A stretch of DNA of 14,345 bases from Candidatus Izemoplasmatales bacterium (GTDB taxonomy: Bacteria > Bacillota_I > Bacilli_A > Izemoplasmatales > Hujiaoplasmataceae). The stretch covers positions 1 to 14,345 of the forward strand of contig JAQVTV010000012.1 of NCBI GenBank assembly GCA_028699855.1, given 5' to 3'. The position numbers and the translations under genes were made by a program. The notes below the pieces were generated by a model, which saw only the letters and a list, made by a program, of their open reading frames with translations, was not told where the DNA came from and did not search any database. This document shows, piece after piece, positions 2,751 to 14,325 of this stretch. How positions within the stretch are numbered: position 1 is the first letter of the stretch; each line of letters begins with the position of its first letter.

Positions 2751-2821
2751 TCCGACACAGTATTCACATGATCGAGGATTATGATGGAGCCATACATTCA
2801 TTATTGATTAGAGAGGTCTAT

Positions 2822-4504
2822 ATGAAAAAAATCCTATCTGTTTGCGCACTGTCATGGATTGCATTATGCTTCGGCTGCGCACTCGATGGCCACGATCAAC
2901 CAAGGACCGTGGTGGTTCAACCTGAAGACATCACGAATATTGCTTCGACCTATATTGATGACATTGTTTTTGATGTTGAAGGCATATCATCGTCGAATCA
3001 TATTGCCGTCATCAGCGATCATTGCATTCGGATTGGTGAGGCTGGCGATTATCGATTATCTGGCAGCCATCCTGATTCTCAAGTGATTGTGGATGCGGGC
3101 GATGATGATACCGTCCGTCTCGTCTTTGATGACCTTCAACTTACAAGTCTCAACAGCCCCCCGATTCTGATTCAAAATGCGAAAAAAGTGATTATCTATC
3201 TGATGCCAGGGACGGAGAATTCACTTCAAGATTCCGCTGCTTCACAATCTGAAGAACGAGCGTGTCTTTTTAGTCGCGACGATCTGACGATCACAGGAGA
3301 AGGTAGCCTTGAGATCAATGCAAATCTCAATCATGGCATCAAAGCCAACGATGACTTACTTATATGGAATACGACATTGAACATCGATGCCACAAATCAC
3401 GCCATCTCCGTACATAACCAATTAGGGATGTCGGGTGCGTCCATCACGCTCACGTCAGGAGGTGATGGTATTCATGTAGAAAACGACACCGAGCCCCTTG
3501 TATCCCTGTTGCATATCGATTCAGGCTCCCTCGTTATCACTTCCGCTCAGGATTCCTTGAGCAGTTCCGGAGAAATATGGATCACAGGTGGAACCTTGAA
3601 TCTGACTTCTGGCGTCAACTCAACGAGTGCCACCACAAGCATGAAGGGGATCAAAGCATCACATACCATTTGGCTGAGCGGTGGCACCTACGTGATCCGA
3701 TCTCAAGAAGACGGAATTCATTCCAACGGACAGATAACGATTGACGGTGGTGAATATTCAATTTCCGCGAAAGATGATGGAATCCACGCTGATAATCAAC
3801 TGATAATCAACGGCGGAACAATCACAATCAGTGAATCCTATGAGGGTATTGAAAGCAAGGATATCGTGATCATGGGCGGTCTGATTACGATCAAATCCAG
3901 TGACGATGGTGTCAACGCTACTGGTGATCACACAACTACTCCGGGTCAATTTCGACCCGGAGGCATGATGGAACAAGGTAATGGAAGTCTCTTAATTGAA
4001 GGCGGGACTCTGATCATCAATGCTTACGGTGATGGCATTGATGTCAACGGTTCTATCAAAATGACTGACGGATTGGTATTGATTTCCGGACCGACATCCA
4101 GCAATAATGGCGCGATCGATTACGACAATTCGTTTTCCATTACTGGTGGAACCCTCGTCGCCTGCGGATCTGCTGGTATGGCACAAAATGTCAGTTCAGC
4201 CACGAACCAAGCATCGATTCTCGTCAATCTGCCTTCTTCTCAATCCGTATTCTTCAGGATTGTGGATGCAAGCGGAGAAAACATCGTCACTTTCTATCCG
4301 GGTAAATCATGTCAATCATTTCTCGTTTCATCTCCAAAGCTTCAAAGAAACACAACTTATTCAATCTATTATGGTGGCACTATGACGAATACAGTGGAAA
4401 AAATCGGTGGATTGTACCTCGATGGCACATATTCTAGTGGTACATTCTACCAAACGGTCACACTAAACTCCTCGATTACAAATCTCGGTTCCGTGAGGCG
4501 TTAA
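2822..4504 (+). CDS. Secreted Cthe_2159-like carbohydrate-binding beta-helix protein
   Basis: The product is 560 residues. The frame extends upstream to 2768, but ATG 2822 is preferred because GAGAGG lies 5 nt before it and the protein then opens with a signal peptide (MKKILSV...). A Cys at residue 19 (LCFGC) makes lipid anchoring possible, though the lipobox is not canonical. The body is a long right-handed parallel beta-helix: repeated rungs such as LTITGEGSLEI, GGTYVIRSQEDGIHSNGQITIDGG, SAKDDGIHADNQLIINGG and KSSDDGVNATGD, with recurrent acidic DDG(I/V) turns. This is the pattern of Pfam Cthe_2159 (formerly DUF4353), whose founding member is a calcium-binding beta-helix protein reported to bind cellulose and polygalacturonate. 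The last ~100 residues form a separate beta-rich tail. It heads the VTC/DUF4956 operon, so a role in binding an extracellular polymer next to that membrane module is plausible. Confidence 0.85.
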   Translation: MKKILSVCALSWIALCFGCALDGHDQPRTVVVQPEDITNIASTYIDDIVFDVEGISSSNHIAVISDHCIRIGEAGDYRLSGSHPDSQVIVDAGDDDTVRLVFDDLQLTSLNSPPILIQNAKKVIIYLMPGTENSLQDSAASQSEERACLFSRDDLTITGEGSLEINANLNHGIKANDDLLIWNTTLNIDATNHAISVHNQLGMSGASITLTSGGDGIHVENDTEPLVSLLHIDSGSLVITSAQDSLSSSGEIWITGGTLNLTSGVNSTSATTSMKGIKASHTIWLSGGTYVIRSQEDGIHSNGQITIDGGEYSISAKDDGIHADNQLIINGGTITISESYEGIESKDIVIMGGLITIKSSDDGVNATGDHTTTPGQFRPGGMMEQGNGSLLIEGGTLIINAYGDGIDVNGSIKMTDGLVLISGPTSSNNGAIDYDNSFSITGGTLVACGSAGMAQNVSSATNQASILVNLPSSQSVFFRIVDASGENIVTFYPGKSCQSFLVSSPKLQRNTTYSIYYGGTMTNTVEKIGGLYLDGTYSSGTFYQTVTLNSSITNLGSVRR

Positions 4505-4506
4505 TC

Positions 4507-5223
4507 ATGAGTCACATGTTTATTCGCTATGAAGAAAAATATCTTGTCCATGCGTCCAAAAAAAAAATATTGCAGAAATATCTCGAGAAACACCTCGCAC
4601 GTGATCGCTTTTCCCTAATGGATAATGGATATCGCGTGTACAGCATATATTTCGATACTCATGACCATCACATCATTCATCAGTCGATTGAACACCCGAA
4701 ATATAAAGAAAAAATGCGAATACGTGCCTACGAACTCCCCACTGCAACAACCCGAGTATACCTTGAACTCAAGAAGAAAGATCATGCGCGGATAAGCAAA
4801 CGAAGGATCTGTCTTTCGCTAGATGATGCTCTAGCTTTTGTCGCAGGAACGTGTTGTCCTACATTTGATGACTATCAGAACACACAGATCACACGAGAAC
4901 TCGATTATTACCTTCATACCCATTTGTTAACTCCTAGCTATCTCATCAGTTACCAACGGGTGGCATTTCATAATCTTGACGGAAGTCTCCTCAGAATCAC
5001 CTTTGATGATGATATCACGTACAATAGTGATCCTCGAGATCTCATTGATTTCAAGGGGAGAGTCATCCTAGATAAGGAATATTCGCTTATGGAAGTCAAA
5101 ACGGAACACAATTACCCCCTTTGGCTTACTAACAAACTCTCAGAACTCAAACTATCCAGTCTATCATTTTCAAAATACGGCAATGCCTATAAAAATACCT
5201 TGACAGGAGTTGAACACAGATGA
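4507..5223 (+). CDS. VTC-domain polyphosphate polymerase
   Basis: The product is 238 residues with no membrane segment, the size of a lone VTC catalytic domain. It starts 2 nt after the preceding stop codon with GTGAGG upstream; a second ATG at 4516 is a less likely start. The landmarks of the triphosphate tunnel fold occur in order: RYEEKY at 7-12, YFD at 48-50, KEKMRIRAY at about 67-75, ELKKK at 87-91, SKRR at 97-100, SYQR at 148-151, RITFDDD at 163-169, MEVK at 195-198 and SKYG at 222-225. In yeast VTC4 the equivalent basic residues line a tunnel that binds polyphosphate and the Glu binds the metal, making polyphosphate from ATP. No key position appears lost. It overlaps the DUF4956 membrane protein by 4 nt, which suggests the soluble enzyme is held at the membrane by that partner. 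Confidence 0.9.
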   Translation: MSHMFIRYEEKYLVHASKKKILQKYLEKHLARDRFSLMDNGYRVYSIYFDTHDHHIIHQSIEHPKYKEKMRIRAYELPTATTRVYLELKKKDHARISKRRICLSLDDALAFVAGTCCPTFDDYQNTQITRELDYYLHTHLLTPSYLISYQRVAFHNLDGSLLRITFDDDITYNSDPRDLIDFKGRVILDKEYSLMEVKTEHNYPLWLTNKLSELKLSSLSFSKYGNAYKNTLTGVEHR

Positions 5224-5906
5224 TTCTCAACATATTTCTGCTCTCAACAGATGAACTCTCGTTGGGAACAGTATTAATCGTGATGCTTTTCGCGGTGTTG
5301 CTCGGTGGCATCTTGACGATGACATATGCTTTCACGCACCGTCTGGAAGGATTTGATCGATCGTTTTGCGTCACATTGCTGATGCTTCCCATTGTTGTCT
5401 CAGTGATTATCATGTTGGTTTCTAACAACATCGCGCGCGCCTTTAGTCTCGCGGGCGTATTTACACTTATACGCTTTCGTTCCACATTATCCGATACCAA
5501 AGACATCACCTTCATTTTCGCATCTGTGGCCATCGGTTTAATTTGTGGCATGGGTTATACAGGTTACGGAATCGTGGTCGCACTCTTTATCGCGTTATTG
5601 ATGGGTTTGCTTCATATCATTCATTTCGATGCAGAAACTGAATCGAGAGCCAGACTGAAAATAGTCATACCTGAAAGCTTGAATTACCCTCACGCTTTCG
5701 ATTCGGTCTTCATGAAATACCTTAAGTCATATAAACTAAACCGAGTGAAGACAACTGATTTCGGCACCACTTTCGAACTGACTTACGATATCCAATTCAA
5801 ACCTGATATCAATCAGAAGGGTTTTCTCGATGATCTCAGGGTTAAAAATAGCAATCTCAATATTGCATTGACGTCCGCATATGTCGCTCAAGTCACAGAA
5901 TCTTGA
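5220..5906 (+). CDS. DUF4956 membrane protein, partner of the VTC enzyme
   Basis: The product is 228 residues. The ATG overlaps the TGA of the VTC gene (ATGA at 5220-5223), so the two are translationally coupled. Four hydrophobic segments lie at about 16-37, 50-67, 97-112 and 116-135. Between the second and third is the conserved DUF4956 core, AFSLAGVFTLIRFRSTL..DTKDI..IF, at about 74-100, with paired Arg residues. Residues about 145-228 form a soluble, probably cytoplasmic alpha/beta tail. DUF4956 proteins are common neighbours of bacterial VTC proteins but their biochemical role is not settled. By analogy with the membrane domain of the eukaryotic VTC complex, this one could anchor the polymerase or pass its product across the membrane; that is inference. 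No terminator was found directly after the gene. Confidence 0.85.
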   Translation: MILNIFLLSTDELSLGTVLIVMLFAVLLGGILTMTYAFTHRLEGFDRSFCVTLLMLPIVVSVIIMLVSNNIARAFSLAGVFTLIRFRSTLSDTKDITFIFASVAIGLICGMGYTGYGIVVALFIALLMGLLHIIHFDAETESRARLKIVIPESLNYPHAFDSVFMKYLKSYKLNRVKTTDFGTTFELTYDIQFKPDINQKGFLDDLRVKNSNLNIALTSAYVAQVTES

Positions 5907-6226: not shown

Positions 6227-9200
6227 TTATTCGGGAGCGACGACACTCGGATGGTGGCAGTCAAAATACATGGCGATCTCCGCAACTGTCAGCGTGGTCG
6301 TAATCTCCTTGATATAGTGAGGCAAAATCGTCACATCAGAAGGCATGACGATCGTGAGCACATCCGAAATGATGATCTCGGGATCATAAAACATCCTGAA
6401 GAAAGCTAAATGGTACTCGTTATTCGGGAAATACCCTGAGAAGTCCAGAGTCACAACGCTATCGCCGGGATAGGTGGTCTGTGTCACGACCATGACATGT
6501 CCGGGGATGACTAAGTGGTTGGTTTTGGCCGGCGAAGCGATACGCATCGCGAAGACATTGACTAAATCTGGAACTGTGATGGTATCGACGACGGTTTCGA
6601 CTCCAAACAAGACATCGCCAATCACAAAGTATCCTTCAGGTGTCAAGTAGTTGTGAATCACAGAGGAGTTGTCGAATAGATAGTTGCCCACATATACCAA
6701 TGCGGAAGAATCCGCAAAGGTCACCGATTCAAGACTAGAGGTGTTCGAAAATGCGTGTTCATAGATCGAATGCACATTGGCAGGAATCGTCATAGAGGTT
6801 ATCACGGCGTTATCGAATGCCTTTTGGTATATCACTTCCAAGGAATCCGGCAAGATCACTTCTGTCACTTGAGCATTTCTGAACGCATAGGGGCCGATGT
6901 ACTTGATGCCATCCGGCACAGTGACCTGCCCGGTTGCGAGCGTCGCCAGATGGAGATAATCACCGAAAATGACGAGGTTATCAGCGGTCACTTCCTGGAA
7001 CTTATCATATGGAGCGACCATCCCGAATGCGGAAGAGCCAACATAAGTTGGGTTGAACCCGGCTTCCCAAGTGATGCTCGTGATCGAGCTGGCAGATGAG
7101 GATATCGCGCTTGACCCGATATACTTCACAGTGGCGGGAATATGAACGCTCGTGAGATTCGGAAAATACCCGGTAATCGCGCCGTCACAAATGGTGACGA
7201 CCGAACCCAAATCGAGAGAAGTGATGGCCACGGGAAGCGTTTGAATCGCACCCATAACGATTACCTCGACCCCTGGCGGGATGACGACATCGGAACTCGC
7301 GCCCTTATATTTCAACAAGTATTTGCCAACGACAACATAATCATCGGGATGATTGTTGAGCCAAGAAGTCGCCACAAAAGGGTTGGAGAGGATATTGCTG
7401 AGATTCCCTGCATCCAGAAATGTGACGCTAGCAAGGGAATTGCAGCTTGCAAAAGCATCCTTGCCAATGGTGGTGACGCTAGCTGGAATCGTTACCGCAG
7501 TCAAAGGATCTCCGAAAAACGCTTCGACACCAATCGCTTCAAGACCATCATGAAGCGTGATCGTCGCGAAATCACTGACGACATAGAAAGCTCGGTCTCC
7601 GATTTTTTTCAAGGGCGTTCCCGCCTGAAAGACCACTTCAGGCAGATGGTACGAGGCTTCAAAGGCACTGATGCCTAGTGTCACCAATCCACTTGGCATC
7701 GTCAGTGTTTGACTGGCAAAGGTTGCGTAATTAAAGGCGTATTTACCGATCAATTGAATCGTGTCGGGAAGGGTGATCGCATTCAAGAATATGGCTTGAT
7801 GGAACGCATACGGCCTGATTTCCTTCAAGTTGGCATTAAAGGTGATATTCTCGATCGTCACACCGGTGAATGCACCTTCAGATATCGCGACGACTTCGTT
7901 CGGAATGACGACATTCACGCCATCACCGAGGTATTTAACAAGCAAGTCGTTGATGATCAGATAATCCGATGGATAAGTGGAAAGATACGGAGTGCCCTTG
8001 AAGACATTATTGCTGAGATAGACGATATTCTCCTCGTTTTCAAAGGTGACTGTTTCGATATTTGAAAGGGCAAAAGCTTCTTCGTTGATATGGGTTAACG
8101 AAGACGGAATTACGATTGTGTCGATTCCGGTTTTTGAGAATGCCCAGTAACCGATCGATTTGATCGAGCTGGGAATGATGATTGAAGTCAGGTTGGACGC
8201 GTTGTAAAACATCCGAGGCGGAATCGACAGAAAGTGGGTCGTAACCGGAAAACTGAATGAAGATAACGTCGTGATTCCTTCAAAAATGCCGATGCCGAGA
8301 TTGAGAACAGAATCAGGAAGTGATACTTCGGTCAGCGCGGTATTGGCAAAAACATAATTGTCGAGTCCAATCAAGTTCTCACAACTGGAGATGTTGACGT
8401 TGACTAGGGCATTTTGATTGTAAAAAGCGTTGTCTCCGATAAATTTCATCGTGCTCGGAAGGACGACTTCGGTCAGTGTGTTCTGTGGGCTCCACACATT
8501 AAAAGCGTTGGCGCCGATAACCTCATAACCTTCATCGAAGATGATCTTGGTCGCTTTCCTGATTCCGAGTGACTCAGCGGCGGAAGCGTTGATGCCGATG
8601 ATCGGATTGCCATCGATCTCAGCAGGTAAAAGCAACTCGGTGCCGGAGTAGCTGTCGCTCACTTCTGAGATGTAATAACCGCGAATACCGGAATAAGGAT
8701 CATAGTACTCTTCATACGTGATATGGGTCGTGTCGACCGACCATTTAGCATAGAATGTGGTGTCCTGAGATATGAAGATCGTCCCGGTAACCGCTTCTCC
8801 TGTCAATCCCGAATGATCATACCAGCCATCAAAAGAATAGCCGATTCTGATGGGAACTTGATTGATTGTGTGGTGTTCACCGGTATTGCTGTAGAAAACG
8901 ACCGGATCGATGGCGTCTCCGCCATTGGTTTCAAAAGTGATGGTGATGCGCGGCATCAATTCCCAAAAGGCATATAGGGTTTGCGAAGTATTGAAGATCG
9001 TCGCATCATTCACTTGTGTTCCTTGGCCGTTCGGAGCAGTGAACCAACCGAGGAAATTATGGTTGGTGTATGTCGATGACTTATTGGAAATCAAGATTGT
9101 CGAACCAGGAACGATCGTCTCCGATGAAACCGGAGATCCTCCGTACGCATTGAACGAGATGCTGATGGTTGCGGCTGTCGTGATGGGTGAGGCAGTCGTC

Positions 9201-9460
9201 CCGATTGTGGTCAGAGGCGGAGAGGTCGTTATTGACGTGCTTGCAGGAGCGAAAGTCGTCGATATGGATGGACTCTGAGTGGTTGAACTCGTAATCGCAC
9301 TTGTGGTAATGGGCATTGTCGTTTGACCTTGATTCTTGTTGCAGTTGGATATGAGACTGATTAAAACAATGATGATGATCACCGCCAATGCGGTGATCAT
9401 GATGGAATGAATCCGATTGTTTGTGATAAAAGCGAGTATTTTTTGCCATAGCTTTTTCAT
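6227..9460 (-). CDS. BspA-like leucine-rich repeat surface protein with two InlB B-repeats
   Basis: The product is 1077 residues. ATG 9460 is preceded by GGAG at an 8-nt spacing. Residues about 18-39 are a strongly hydrophobic signal/anchor helix, ending in SNC at 38-40; the Asn before the Cys makes a lipobox doubtful, so a plain N-terminal anchor is equally possible. Residues about 47-97 are a Thr/Ser/Pro-rich stalk. Two Listeria-Bacteroides (Flg_new) B-repeats follow, at about 98-168 (FNAYGG...FLGWF...LYAFW) and 171-241 (FETNGG...FDGWY...FYAKW). From about 275 on the protein is built of BspA-type LRR_5 repeats, recognised by recurring LPDSV..IG..AF..... and IP.SV..I...AF units. Family members act in adhesion, host or matrix binding and coaggregation; the ligand here is not known. 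The stalk and B-repeat design matches the lipoprotein at the left edge. The gene is monocistronic, with its own promoter and terminator. Confidence 0.9.
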   Translation of the reverse strand: MKKLWQKILAFITNNRIHSIMITALAVIIIIVLISLISNCNKNQGQTTMPITTSAITSSTTQSPSISTTFAPASTSITTSPPLTTIGTTASPITTAATISISFNAYGGSPVSSETIVPGSTILISNKSSTYTNHNFLGWFTAPNGQGTQVNDATIFNTSQTLYAFWELMPRITITFETNGGDAIDPVVFYSNTGEHHTINQVPIRIGYSFDGWYDHSGLTGEAVTGTIFISQDTTFYAKWSVDTTHITYEEYYDPYSGIRGYYISEVSDSYSGTELLLPAEIDGNPIIGINASAAESLGIRKATKIIFDEGYEVIGANAFNVWSPQNTLTEVVLPSTMKFIGDNAFYNQNALVNVNISSCENLIGLDNYVFANTALTEVSLPDSVLNLGIGIFEGITTLSSFSFPVTTHFLSIPPRMFYNASNLTSIIIPSSIKSIGYWAFSKTGIDTIVIPSSLTHINEEAFALSNIETVTFENEENIVYLSNNVFKGTPYLSTYPSDYLIINDLLVKYLGDGVNVVIPNEVVAISEGAFTGVTIENITFNANLKEIRPYAFHQAIFLNAITLPDTIQLIGKYAFNYATFASQTLTMPSGLVTLGISAFEASYHLPEVVFQAGTPLKKIGDRAFYVVSDFATITLHDGLEAIGVEAFFGDPLTAVTIPASVTTIGKDAFASCNSLASVTFLDAGNLSNILSNPFVATSWLNNHPDDYVVVGKYLLKYKGASSDVVIPPGVEVIVMGAIQTLPVAITSLDLGSVVTICDGAITGYFPNLTSVHIPATVKYIGSSAISSSASSITSITWEAGFNPTYVGSSAFGMVAPYDKFQEVTADNLVIFGDYLHLATLATGQVTVPDGIKYIGPYAFRNAQVTEVILPDSLEVIYQKAFDNAVITSMTIPANVHSIYEHAFSNTSSLESVTFADSSALVYVGNYLFDNSSVIHNYLTPEGYFVIGDVLFGVETVVDTITVPDLVNVFAMRIASPAKTNHLVIPGHVMVVTQTTYPGDSVVTLDFSGYFPNNEYHLAFFRMFYDPEIIISDVLTIVMPSDVTILPHYIKEITTTLTVAEIAMYFDCHHPSVVAPE

Positions 9461-10464: not shown

Positions 10465-11280
10465 TTATTTAATGATGATCTTATTGACGCTGCCAATCAG
10501 ACCGCTTGAACAACAGTATTGGGGTTTGTTTGGTGCAATCAAAGATGTGATGGAGCCATGGGTGTGACCACATAACACCGCTTTAACTTCGTCTGATGAA
10601 CAGACCAAGTGTATGAAATTGCTTGTGACTTCATCGCAGTCATGATCACTCATCGAATAATATGAGTCCAGTTTCATGAATTGATCACGATTATATTCTG
10701 TCATCATCGGTACATGCATCGTCAAAATAATCGACTTCTTATAATCAAGCAATTGTCTGAAAGTGCTAAGTTGAGAAGGTTGAATCTTTCGAGTTGAATT
10801 ATGGATGGACACTACGAGAAATTCATCAAACTCGACATAATATAAGTCACAATTGCCTTGACAAAGATCTTGGAACAACGCGGATGGATATTCATGGTTT
10901 CCACATAGAAACAAGTATGGGCTGTTAAGGCGTTTGATTGATTTTGCCAAATAAGCATAATTAGCCTGAGAATAATAATCAATGATATCTCCCGTCAATA
11001 AGACTAAATCGGGCTGATTATTGTTCGCATATTCGATTAACTGAGTAAGGCACTCAGTGGATGGAAGCAATAACTCTGAATCATAATTTTCTTTAAACTT
11101 ACGTGCGAAATTAAGCCGCTGTTTCAGCCATAATTTTTCTTGATTGATCGCCTTAGTTATTGATTGATGATCATCGTGTTGCTCATATGTAGCCACATGA
11201 ACATCACTAAACTGGATCAATCTATGTTCCTTTGAAAGACCTAAATCTATATTTAGTAACTTTTCTTGTATGAAACTCAT
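10465..11280 (-). CDS. Calcineurin-like metallophosphoesterase
   Basis: The product is 271 residues. The five metal-binding motifs occur in order: FSDVHV (Asp26, His28), LLTGDIID (Gly97-Asp98), LCGNHEY (Asn128, His129, Glu130), TMHVP (His189) and CGHTHG (His239, His241). It should therefore bind two metal ions and cleave phosphoester bonds; whether it acts on proteins, nucleotides or phospholipids is not visible. About 65 residues, many of them charged, separate the first two motifs and look like a helical insert. There is no signal peptide or membrane helix, although the C-terminus is hydrophobic. The ATG is preceded by AAGGA 9 nt upstream. It is the first gene of a two-gene operon with the histidine phosphatase. 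The upstream DNA is very AT-rich; TTGTGA (11326-11331) followed by TATTAG at 17 nt is a weak promoter candidate. Confidence 0.88.
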   Translation of the reverse strand: MSFIQEKLLNIDLGLSKEHRLIQFSDVHVATYEQHDDHQSITKAINQEKLWLKQRLNFARKFKENYDSELLLPSTECLTQLIEYANNNQPDLVLLTGDIIDYYSQANYAYLAKSIKRLNSPYLFLCGNHEYPSALFQDLCQGNCDLYYVEFDEFLVVSIHNSTRKIQPSQLSTFRQLLDYKKSIILTMHVPMMTEYNRDQFMKLDSYYSMSDHDCDEVTSNFIHLVCSSDEVKAVLCGHTHGSITSLIAPNKPQYCCSSGLIGSVNKIIIK

Positions 11281-11426: not shown

Positions 11427-12300
11427 CTAAGGAAGAATTTCTTTCTTTGAATAATGCACTTCATAAAGTGTCTTATAATCGATGGAACTATGGATCTTTC
11501 TTCGATTATAGAACCCTTCGCTGTAGCAAAATATGACTGTTTTTGCTTCTTTGGATTTTATAAGATAACTCGATTAAGCTTTTCTCGTTTGATGATCGAA
11601 TGAAACGCTTCAATCGGAGCGTTGTCCTGTGGAATCCCTTTACGTGAGTATGAGTGAAGGATTCCGTTTGCCTGTAAGATCTATTCGACATCATAACTGA
11701 GATATTGATTGCCTAGACCCGACTGAACCATGATACCTCTTGTGTCATGTGTTTTATATACAGCTTGTCGTAATGATTCCAAAACGATCTCTTTGCACAT
11801 ATGTTTTTGATAGGAGTTACCGATAATCAAGCGAAAATGCATATCCATGACACTTGCCATATAGGTCCATCCTTCATATACGGTCCAGACATAGGTGATG
11901 TCCATTGTCCATTTCTAGTTAGGATAATCTGTACTGAAATCCTATTCCATCAGGATCTCTTTGTCATCTGAAGCCTTTTCTGTCTTTCCTAGTTTAAATT
12001 TCTTAGTGATGATAGAACGCAAGCTTAGGCGCTACATATAGGTGCTTACGCGCTTTAGAGACGCATAGTAATCTTGTTTCATCAATTCCTTGAGAATCTT
12101 TGTGCTCCTTATATGGAATCAAATTCATTGTAGATGTTGATGATTCTTGATTCCAGATCGATTCGATCGATTTATTCATTGCTCATGGTATGATTCATGA
12201 TCTTGTTTACGGTACTTCGATTCAACTTCAGCACTCTGCACATGATTGCGATCGGGTATATATGTTTGAATAACTAGATAAAGTCGACTTTTGCTTTTAG
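11427..12300 (-). pseudogene. IS3-family transposase OrfB (rve integrase core), decayed
   Basis: The remnant is readable in pieces: YPIAIMCRVLKLNRSTVNK near the start, then a region with several stops and a frameshift, then WTMDITYVWTVYEGWTYMASVMDMHFR, the beginning of the integrase core with the first Asp (MDITYV). The stretch that should read HSDxGxQY is VQSGLGNQY, so the catalytic Asp has become Gly. After another stop come SYSRKGIPQDNAPIEAFHSIIKREK, with the catalytic Glu, and, after a frameshift, EGFYNRRKIHSSIDYKTLYEV up to a TAG at 11427-11429. This is the standard order of an IS150-type OrfB. Premature stops, at least two frame changes and the lost Asp show that it is dead. Confidence 0.85.
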
Positions 12301-12301
12301 T

Positions 12302-12645
12302 GTTTTTTTGGCGAATATGGCTGTCGCCTTTAATATGATATCATTCTCCATTTCCAATTACTTTATGCGTTACTTCATAGCTTTGAATTCTTGTTTGTTT
12401 ATCTTCCCACCTTCTTCGGAGGTGGTAAATGGTTTTAGTTCTGATACCCATTTATAGATGGTTCCTGTGGGTACGCCATATTCACTTGATAGCTTCCGTA
12501 CGGATTGTCCAGTTTTATGTATTTCGTAGATCTGTTTATTAAACTTCCGGGGATAACGATATCTCTCCAGTTCAAATTGCATCAAACCTATGCTTGTCAT
12601 ATGTGTAAGTTGACCGAGGCTAATACGATTTAGCACCTTAGTCAA
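12302..12645 (-). pseudogene. IS3-family transposase OrfA (helix-turn-helix protein), decayed
   Basis: The first 91 codons (12645 to 12370) are open from a TTG and encode YPRKFNKQIYEIHKTGQSVRKLSSEYGVPTGTIYKWVSELKP, the HTH_Tnp_1 domain of OrfA proteins. Two in-frame stops follow, after which the normal OrfA tail is still legible: LEMENDIILKATAIFAKK. A run of seven A on the minus strand (12303-12309) sits where IS3-family elements carry the slippery site for the -1 frameshift that fuses OrfA to OrfB. An 11-bp direct repeat, TTTAGCACCTT, occurs at 12629-12639 and 12648-12658 around the start. The truncated product could still be translated but would be only the DNA-binding part. Confidence 0.8.
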
Positions 12646-12793: not shown

Positions 12794-12813
12794 AAATTCA
12801 TTGATTCCCGGAA
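12794..12813 (+). repeat. Outer flanking repeat, left copy
   Basis: AAATTCATT (12794-12802) is followed by the dyad TTCC-C-GGAA (12805-12813). The same two elements occur in the same order and orientation at 14307-14324, outside the other end of the ATPase cassette. Confidence 0.45.
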
Positions 12814-12818
12814 AAAGG

Positions 12819-12865
12819 TTGTCCCGTTTTCTATTTATTAACAATTGGTTATTGTCCCGTTTTCT
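12819..12865 (+). repeat. Pair of direct repeats downstream of the ATPase gene
   Basis: TTGTCCCGTTTTCT occurs at 12819-12832 and again at 12852-12865, 33 bp start to start. The second copy overlaps the end of the ATPase gene and supplies its last codons (KTGQ-stop on the minus strand). The DNA between the copies does not resemble the DNA between the matching pair at the other side of the gene. Confidence 0.8.
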
Positions 12866-14213
12866 TGGATGATAAAACACCCAAATTGAGCGGTTCTCTC
12901 TTTTTAATCATTTCTGTTTTTCCGATGAACATAATCATATATATTGGTAAATACATGATTTTATCTTTTTGACTAACGTTGAAGTTAGATAACACGATTG
13001 AGCTATTAAACTGACGTGTCGACATAAAATAGGACAATGCAGAATGTTTTTGATAATCCTTACCGCTTTTCACTTCGATTGGAAGTAATTCATTGTTATG
13101 TTCAACAAGAAAATCCACTTCACCATGCTTTTTGCTATTAAAATAGTAATTTTTGTACCCGTGTGCTGTTAGTTCTTGTGCAATGGCATTTTCAAACATG
13201 GAACCACAATTGATATCTTTACCTTTCTCAAGAAGTCTTAAAATAGTAGCTGACCCATATGTGCTTGTTAGCATCCCGACATCCGAAAGAAATAATTTGA
13301 AAAGATTACTTTTCTTACTAGCTTCCAATGGAATCTCGAATTCAGTTACATTATAGACGGGCAATGATACTCCAGCATCGATTAGCCAGTTAAAACTGTT
13401 TTCATACCGATCAAAACGTAGTTCTTTATCAAGGTTAGTGAAAATGTAGCGTTTGTTTTTGGTGTTTAACTCGGATGGAATTAAATCATATGTTCTAAGG
13501 AGTTTCAGTTTCTTTGACTGCTCATATTTTGTGAAGTCTTTTCGATACTCCCTTATAATTTTTCCGTGAACTTTTGAGACTTGAACTAAATCATTTGAAT
13601 CAAGGTAGGTTTGCACAGCTTCAGGCATTCCACCAACGTTCAAATACGTGTAGAATGCTTCAATGATTTTATCATGAACAAAATCATCAACAGGAGTCAA
13701 TTGAGTGTAACATTGTTTTAAATTACTGATAACATCATCGCCAAGTCCATTTGCGATTAAGAATTCTTCAAAATCCATTGGATACATATCGATGGTTGTA
13801 AGATATCCAACGGGAGCAGAACGGAGATCAGTAAGTTCTACCCCGAGCAGTGATCCACTCAGTACATATTTAAATTTCCCTTGTTCAACTAAGAATTTTA
13901 TGATTGTAACGATTTCTTTGCATTCTTGTATTTCGTCAAAGAAGATCACAGTTCCGTCTTTAAGTTGTTTATTTGCTGCTACACGTATTGCCATTAAGAA
14001 TTTGTCAGCATCTTCTTCAACGGCAGATTTGAATATATCTAATAATTTGGGTTGCTTAATAAAGTTAAATTCAATGAAGTCCGCTGCTTTCTTTTTTAAG
14101 GTTTCACGAATGATGAATGATTTGCCGACTTGTCGGGCTCCAGTGATTAATAGCGCGTCATTTCCCTTTTGAATCCACTCTTCAATTTGTTTCTTTATTT
14201 TTCTAAACAACAT
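12849..14213 (-). CDS. AAA_14/DUF4143 family ATPase
   Basis: The product is 454 residues. ATG 14213 is preceded by AGAGGTGG about 5 nt upstream. Residues about 1-150 form a P-loop ATPase (AAA_14) with Walker A GARQVGKS (25-32) and Walker B VIFFDEIQ (89-96, Asp93-Glu94). The conserved SGS sensor-like motif (119-121) and the YPMDFEEFL block (144-152) are both typical of this family. The C-terminal part is DUF4143, with MFENAIAQEL (339-348) and a restriction-endonuclease-like core: GEVDFLV (Asp367) and PIEVKSG (Glu380, Lys382). The family is widespread, often multicopy and linked to accessory DNA, but its function is not established; ATP-dependent action on DNA or a partner protein is a guess from the nuclease-like fold. 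The gene is AT-rich, stands alone and is framed by direct repeats on both sides. Confidence 0.88.
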   Translation of the reverse strand: MLFRKIKKQIEEWIQKGNDALLITGARQVGKSFIIRETLKKKAADFIEFNFIKQPKLLDIFKSAVEEDADKFLMAIRVAANKQLKDGTVIFFDEIQECKEIVTIIKFLVEQGKFKYVLSGSLLGVELTDLRSAPVGYLTTIDMYPMDFEEFLIANGLGDDVISNLKQCYTQLTPVDDFVHDKIIEAFYTYLNVGGMPEAVQTYLDSNDLVQVSKVHGKIIREYRKDFTKYEQSKKLKLLRTYDLIPSELNTKNKRYIFTNLDKELRFDRYENSFNWLIDAGVSLPVYNVTEFEIPLEASKKSNLFKLFLSDVGMLTSTYGSATILRLLEKGKDINCGSMFENAIAQELTAHGYKNYYFNSKKHGEVDFLVEHNNELLPIEVKSGKDYQKHSALSYFMSTRQFNSSIVLSNFNVSQKDKIMYLPIYMIMFIGKTEMIKKREPLNLGVLSSKKTGQ

Positions 14214-14233
14214 ATGACCACCTCTGCAACTAT

Positions 14234-14262
14234 ATTGTACTACTATTTGTCCCGTTTTACAA
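14234..14262 (-). promoter_or_regulatory. Promoter of the ATPase gene with a repeat box inside the spacer
   Basis: On the minus strand, -35 TTGTAA (14257-14262) and -10 TACAAT (14234-14239) are 17 nt apart and about 20 nt upstream of the ATG at 14213. The repeat box at 14247-14258 fills most of the spacer and touches the -35, so whatever binds the repeat would compete with RNA polymerase. Confidence 0.6.
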
Positions 14263-14293
14263 TGCTATTTTAGGTTGAATTGTCCCGTTTTCT
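14247..14293 (+). repeat. Pair of direct repeats upstream of the ATPase gene
   Basis: TTGTCCCGTTTT occurs at 14247-14258 and TTGTCCCGTTTTCT at 14280-14293, again 33 bp start to start and in the same orientation as the pair at 12819-12865. The inner copy overlaps the promoter. Confidence 0.8.
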
Positions 14294-14306
14294 AACTGTC
14301 TAAAAT

Positions 14307-14325
14307 AAATTCATTCCAGGGAATG
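14307..14325 (+). repeat. Outer flanking repeat, right copy
   Basis: AAATTCATT (14307-14315) overlaps the dyad CATTCC-AG-GGAATG (14312-14325). It matches the left copy at 12794-12813 in its first 9 bp and in having a TTCC/GGAA dyad next to it. Confidence 0.45.

Follow-up and report, generated by a model that had tools for sequence, protein, structure and literature searches.

Near one end of the window, by which we mean the whole stretch of 14,345 nucleotides that was analysed, lies a gene for a predicted ATPase-nuclease, accompanied by a pair of short direct repeats (boxes) on its promoter side and a second pair at its 3′ end. The features of this unit, all given on the gene strand, are the following:

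12849..14213, minus strand: predicted ATPase-nuclease gene (AAA_14 + DUF4143, 454 aa, PADLOC candidate PDC-S01), from domain profiles
14218..14225, minus strand: ribosome-binding-site-like AGAGGTGG before the ATG, read from the sequence
14234..14239, minus strand: putative -10 hexamer TACAAT, 17 bp after the -35, a consensus match only
14247..14258, minus strand: promoter-proximal box of the 5′ array, AAAACGGGACAA, between -35 and -10
14257..14262, minus strand: putative -35 hexamer TTGTAA, which shares two bases with the proximal box, a consensus match only
14280..14291, minus strand: distal box of the 5′ array, 33 bp from the proximal box
12852..12863, minus strand: inner box of the 3′ pair, overlapping the last ATPase codons, from the sequence and the Paracholeplasma vituli comparison
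12819..12830, minus strand: outer box of the 3′ pair, 33 bp further, on the same grounds

The box and its gene in the window

All four boxes are exact copies of TTGTCCCGTTTT on the plus strand (at 12819, 12852, 14247 and 14280; n = 4), which reads AAAACGGGACAA on the minus strand of the gene, and the start-to-start distance is 33 bp in both pairs. A preliminary description of the locus had reported four direct copies in two 33-bp pairs with unrelated DNA between them, and position, orientation, spacing and the unrelated filler were all borne out. It had also placed an ATPase gene between the pairs: an AAA_14-DUF4143 gene does lie there, but the box at 12852 falls inside the last codons of this gene rather than outside it. 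When up to two mismatches were allowed, TTGTCCCGTTTT matched the window eight times against 1.46 expected, a number reached in none of 200 shuffles, and the four window copies are the only exact ones in the source draft genome (1.34 Mb, 68.5% complete). About 33 bp separate the end of the upstream pair from the ATG. Taken alone, the promoter match of the window is unexceptional, as six promoter-like sites were found in the region against 7.2 expected in shuffles.

Just beyond the 3′ pair, at 12370-12645, we observed an ORF with a transposase-like helix-turn-helix (HTH_Tnp_1, below cut-off), and no other ORF of at least 80 aa was listed between it and position 11280. Further away, at 2768-5906 and 6227-9460, the window holds Cthe_2159 carbohydrate-binding, VTC-domain and DUF4956 genes in a row, followed by a gene for a 1077-aa BspA-type leucine-rich repeat protein.

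In the ATPase-nuclease, AAA_14 (PF13173) covers residues 18-152 (89.4 bits, cut-off 27) and DUF4143 (PF13635) residues 225-384 (103.2 bits, cut-off 28.1). The Walker residues G30, K31, D93 and E94, together with E341, E380 and K382, are invariant in all 96 homologues compared, and D367 is D in 75 and E in 21 of them. Since E341, D367, E380 and K382 are PD-(D/E)XK-like, and weak matches of residues 332-398 to NERD, Mrr_cat, Cas4 and YraN agree with this reading, the C-terminal part fits a PD-(D/E)XK nuclease. A winged helix is possible in the first half of DUF4143; an ArsR-type HTH profile matched within this domain in one relative, from a clade lacking arrays, just below cut-off. Sequence searches of the PDB returned relatives for the P-loop part alone. 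In profile searches, neither the window protein nor the unit gave a transposase or recombinase domain, and the protein matched no replication or partition family above cut-off; a weak DnaA ATPase match appeared in 3 of the 96 homologues. PADLOC profile PDLC04792 (PDC-S01) matched residues 1-438 of 454 at 8.5e-180. The family is large, with at least 8000 homologues scored in one search and as many as 11 DUF4143 matches in a single genome, but of the 5.39 million papers searched one names DUF4143 and three mention PDC-S01.

Array spacing across ATPase clades

A protein search of 395 genomes of the class gave matches in 84 genomes at E up to 1e-60, and part of these protein matches were scanned upstream for any pair of 12-mers agreeing at 11 or more positions, irrespective of their letters. 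Among the 80 genes with enough upstream DNA, the spacing was 33 in 64 and 32 in 12, and every other spacing from 20 to 60 occurred at most three times. Outside the upstream region, the same scan at 33 found 1 pair in 84 downstream regions and none inside 81 genes.

We then placed 132 DUF4143 ATPases in a tree, which divided into a clade that we call c33 (n = 96, including the window protein; weak root support, 0.63), its sister clade c23 (n = 21; root support 0.999) and two further clades (n = 15). Direct repeats at 32 or 33 bp lie upstream of 82 of 95 c33 genes, against 0.8 expected from dinucleotide shuffles, and repeats at 66 bp in 50 genes; downstream, a pair at 33 was found in 1 of 95. 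With the loci found via the box itself removed, 75 of 88 c33 genes show the 32/33 spacing. One of the 13 c33 members below threshold has a pair at 34 bp. Sister clade c23 has a spacing of its own, with 23 bp in 19 of 21 genes (0.05 expected) and 46 bp in 16 of 21. In the two further clades (15 genes), 23 bp occurred in none and 32 bp in one, so arrays of this kind are not universal among DUF4143 ATPases. An array holds two to seven copies, mostly three. The preliminary description had asked whether the spacing would be fixed in relatives, and within a clade it is nearly constant.

The arrays occur across phyla. Eight of ten named relatives, located on plasmids and one phage-collection scaffold, carry a 32/33 array, the spacing being 33 in Vescimonas, Prevotella, Collinsella, Agathobacter and the phage-collection scaffold, and 32 in Acinetobacter, Vibrio and Criblamydia; no such array was found upstream of the Segatella locus, where the match begins only at residue 30, or the Fusobacterium locus. 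Named c23 relatives (30-45% identical) have a spacing of 23 in Bacteroides ovatus, B. uniformis, Collinsella, Lentilactobacillus and Actinomyces oris. A Prosthecochloris gene shows 23 bp at 10/12 matching positions and a more distant Novosphingobium gene 22 bp, and none of these spacings was found upstream of five other distant genes. Two viral-contig loci hold a 30% relative.

As a control we examined 160 other ORFs of the fetched loci, leaving out four ORFs that share upstream DNA with an ATPase; spacings of 33 and 32 were found in four and two of them, and 23 and 15 in none. One of the four at 33 is an ATPase that has lost its Walker motif. At locus L015 (G375:C18), an ATPase copy with Walker A lost keeps three boxes at 33 bp. 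Simple slippage is unlikely as a full account of the arrays, spacer identity being below 0.5 in 44 of 76 c33 and 5 of 12 c23 arrays, and it may be the source of copies in arrays whose units are more alike.

The DUF234 ATPases (PF01637 + PF03008; PADLOC PDC-S27, which two of these relatives match) show a third spacing. An 11-mer pair with at least 10 matching positions lies 15 bp apart upstream of 14 of 19 genes (L200-L224) and is often palindromic; over spacings of 11 to 100, only 30 besides 15 reaches three occurrences, and downstream none does. Under the stricter 12-mer rule the count is 12 of 18. Among seven named DUF234 plasmid loci, two have the pair at 10/11, one of them in the archaeon Halalkaliarchaeum (L227, upstream of 692), and two more at 9/11. 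We regard the DUF234 result as weaker than that for DUF4143. Spacings of 33/32 and 23 bp correspond to roughly three and two helical turns; 15 bp is no whole number of turns, but the boxes there are often dyads. In a third DUF4143 clade, of GIRRSGKS type, the promoter of three of seven genes (L156, L161, L143) is flanked by two long box copies spaced 73-97 bp, which may be a variant geometry of this principle.

Box letters, promoter motifs and arrays apart from the gene

The repeated letters vary from gene to gene while the spacing stays. In c33, mean box similarity falls from 11.0/11 at 90-100% protein identity to 9.1 at 50-60%; below 50% identity it is 7.5-7.7 versus 7.2-7.3 for shuffled boxes, near chance and still slightly more alike. 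In c23, boxes are no more alike than by chance even at 60-70% protein identity (5 pairs), a quicker change than expected of an ordinary operator; as c23 has few close pairs, the decay with protein identity is read from c33. Paralogues within each of three genomes (G087, G129 and G286) have different boxes when compared by eye. When protein positions were compared with box similarity in an exploratory scan, the signal rose only weakly around residues 290-315 (365 related pairs, r 0.24), and we claim no significance for it. In nine genomes, which were chosen for holding the pair, all 23 places with the exact 12-mer lie within arrays. Because the exact 12-mer is confined to arrays in these nine genomes, and paralogues have different boxes, we rejected a global regulator as the binder.

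Many boxes coincide with promoter motifs. A TTGNAA box is present in 46 arrays. With one mismatch allowed, a TATAAT follows this hexamer at a distance of exactly 17 bp in 18 of them when the penultimate box is considered, in 10 when the last box is, and in 5 of 33 for the box before the penultimate one; no other offset gives more than 6. These consensus matches suggest that in at least 18 of the 46 arrays a box also serves as the -35 of the gene, in which case the next box would lie about at the transcription start. By the same kind of match, the boxes lie over or next to the promoter of their own gene, as in an operator array.

The window unit was compared with that of Paracholeplasma vituli, which belongs to a different family of the same class and has a 92% identical ATPase. 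The two units align over 1573 columns with 86% DNA identity, both box pairs included, and this degree of identity across families suggests horizontal transfer of the unit between the two lineages. Homology continues past both outer boxes, for 43 bp on the 3′ side and, on the 5′ side, for at least 50 bp, at which point the contig is almost at its end. In the 5′ filler, insertions and deletions cancel (4 against 3 + 1), so that the spacing is kept at 33. At the 3′ end, P. vituli has a TAG stop directly before the inner box; the same codon is AAG in the window, and the frame runs through the box for four codons to a TAA. An outer direct repeat, AAATTCATT, had been proposed as a target duplication, a proposal that the comparison does not favour: a third copy lies at 12121, 9 of 200 shuffles reach three copies, which puts the repeat near chance, and AAATTCATT is absent at the corresponding P. 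vituli positions.

A box pair at both ends of the gene was found in 2 of 82 array-bearing genes, namely those of the window and P. vituli. Thirteen other c33 genes have a single downstream box-like match at 10/12 or better, which is attainable by chance. We rejected the possibility that the 3′ pair was the leader of a lost second ATPase in tandem, as tblastn with 96 c33 proteins at E 0.01 found no remnant downstream in the window or in P. vituli. By eye, we saw no leader-like promoter and start after the 3′ pair.

In a collection of genomes of 84,980 species, the exact pair at 33 bp occurs in eight stretches, seven from Bacilli or Erysipelotrichaceae and the eighth from P. vituli. By tblastn, two of these (L001 and L004) have three boxes followed by a 64-65% identical ATPase, and the P. 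vituli stretch (L006) contains the start of the 92% identical ATPase; in the other five, no ATPase was detected at E up to 1. With up to three mismatches, the pair was found in 8 of the 395 genomes of the class, the window's own included, a number of which little can be made since a reversed control pattern also matched 6 of 395.

Boxes without an adjacent ATPase, which we term orphan arrays, were thus present in five genomes, and this counts against the expectation that the boxes always flank a DUF4143 ATPase gene. An E limit of 1e-10 gave no ATPase in genomes G191 and G436 and, in G437-G439, only other ATPases of at most 37% identity; tblastn of 96 c33 proteins at E 0.01 found no ATPase remnant at the orphan loci. 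Three orphan double-box arrays from horse-gut Bacilli (L002:2511-2555, L003:828-872 and L007:3058-3102) share a block of ∼130 bp with differing neighbours, and no cognate ATPase was found for them; within the blocks the boxes are perfect and the surroundings have drifted. The L007 block is flanked by two copies of TCAAGCCCGTWAGGG. The other two orphan arrays (L005:1506-1550 and L008:5596-5640) keep, by eye, part of the L001/L004 ATPase leader, and were apparently left over after loss of the ATPase gene. On a viral contig (L009:3031-3075), the 12-mer is part of an 11-bp tandem repeat, with an inverted copy at 3210; this looks unrelated.

A probable operator array and its alternatives

In our view the boxes are probably a self-specific operator array for autoregulation, and the ATPase-nuclease encoded next to them probably binds it co-operatively. 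The protein would bind two to seven boxes of its own just upstream of its own gene, along one face of the DNA, with the spacing set by the build of the protein (33/32 bp in c33, 23 in c23 and 15 in DUF234). As the -35 often lies within a box or beside one, protein on the array would block RNA polymerase and thereby keep the nuclease scarce. Since the geometry is fixed and the letters drift, protein and boxes would change together, and each gene copy of a genome would be controlled separately. Autoregulation had been named before as one option, which gains from the promoter-side position of the arrays and the clade-wide spacing (82/95); the latter also strengthens the earlier argument that fixed spacing without fixed filler points to a protein on several boxes along one DNA face. 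The 3′ pair (2/82) and the orphan arrays (five genomes) go beyond simple autoregulation, and there may be a second binder besides the ATPase.

The array could instead be the working site of a defence or selfish module, where the ATPase-nuclease would assemble in fixed geometry and wait, parked or sensing, until infection releases or activates it; repression would then be a by-product. The conserved nuclease-type residues and clade-specific spacing are compatible with such a role, as are arrays of up to seven boxes, seemingly more than simple repression needs, a turnover of boxes as fast as in an arms race, the persistence of orphan arrays with perfect boxes, and the listing of both families by PADLOC as defence candidates (PDC-S01 and PDC-S27). 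Yet the placement at the promoter and the absence of the box elsewhere in nine genomes need autoregulation only, and the literature examined, as far as its accessible text goes, records no demonstrated defence activity for the family; we therefore think this alternative unlikely. The earlier suggestion of a small mobile cassette, bounded on either side by double boxes with a target duplication outside them and mobilized by the ATPase, fares worse. It could draw on the pairs at both ends in the window and P. vituli, on the likely horizontal transfer of a unit 86% identical across families, and on the orphan arrays if these were scars of excision. Against it stand the rarity of two-ended units (2/82), the lack of a transposase or recombinase domain, homology that passes the outer boxes, and an outer repeat that is near chance and not conserved; moreover, L005 and L008 keep, by eye, ATPase leaders of different lengths, which fits decay and not exact excision. 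The two-ended count, the P. vituli comparison and the near-chance outer repeat led us to reject such a cassette as the general reading, and we find it very improbable. We give hardly any weight to a CRISPR-like or other RNA guide array with boxes as repeats and fillers as guides: the repeats are short and regular and the fillers differ, but promoter motifs in the last array units imply that the array is mostly not transcribed with the gene, the fillers themselves are alike in many arrays, and the window unit has no Rfam match.

Returning to the autoregulatory array, fast letter change and the number of boxes leave room for what may be a further role in a defence or selfish function. A speculative extension, which we put forward as conceivable although somewhat doubtful, is that PDC-S01 and PDC-S27 genes are one-gene 'address' modules, in which the array, beyond its use as an operator, itself takes part in the immune or selfish function and infection sets the parked nuclease free. 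Each copy would have its own array, the assembly geometry would be fixed by the clade (33/32, 23 or 15 bp), and box letters and protein would diversify together, so that paralogues, or rival copies on plasmids and phages, avoid cross-talk.

PDC-S01 and PDC-S27 have been described as ATPase domains fused to the PD-(D/E)XK superfamily, and PDC-S01 is reported to rank fourth in frequency among defences across prokaryotes (PMC12988326). The window protein resembles PDC-S01 by its near full-length profile match; what sets the present families apart is the upstream arrays, none of which is described in the main text of that paper, where the words promoter and operator are absent and the passages with 'upstream' or 'repeat' are not about such arrays. 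The literature that we searched, whose scope did not include the founding PDC preprint (Payne 2024), likewise gave no account of them.

The array marks a very common, uncharacterised gene, a candidate for phage defence, and offers a first handle on what its protein binds. It allows targets to be predicted from sequence alone, and makes the function of the protein testable by simple binding and reporter assays. In addition, fixed spacing combined with free letters makes the arrays a clean natural data set for the co-evolution of protein-DNA recognition.

Several known systems combine repeated sites with a neighbouring gene. Transposon ends such as those of Tn7 contain several spaced binding sites; the arrays share the multiple spaced sites but differ from such ends in that a pair at the other end was found in only 2 of 82 genes and a transposase domain is lacking. 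Plasmid iterons and centromere repeats (parC) are direct repeats of constant spacing beside the gene of a DNA-binding protein or ATPase, which the arrays resemble in their direct orientation, constant spacing and adjoining gene, whereas profile searches with the window protein gave no replication or partition family above cut-off. Autoregulatory promoters with multiple operators are also known from restriction-modification systems, as C-protein boxes, and from antitoxins. Like them, the arrays consist of repeated, self-specific boxes over the promoter of a gene whose product probably binds them; here, however, the presumed binder is the ATPase-nuclease itself, the boxes form two to seven direct repeats, and their spacing is fixed over a deep clade while the letters drift.
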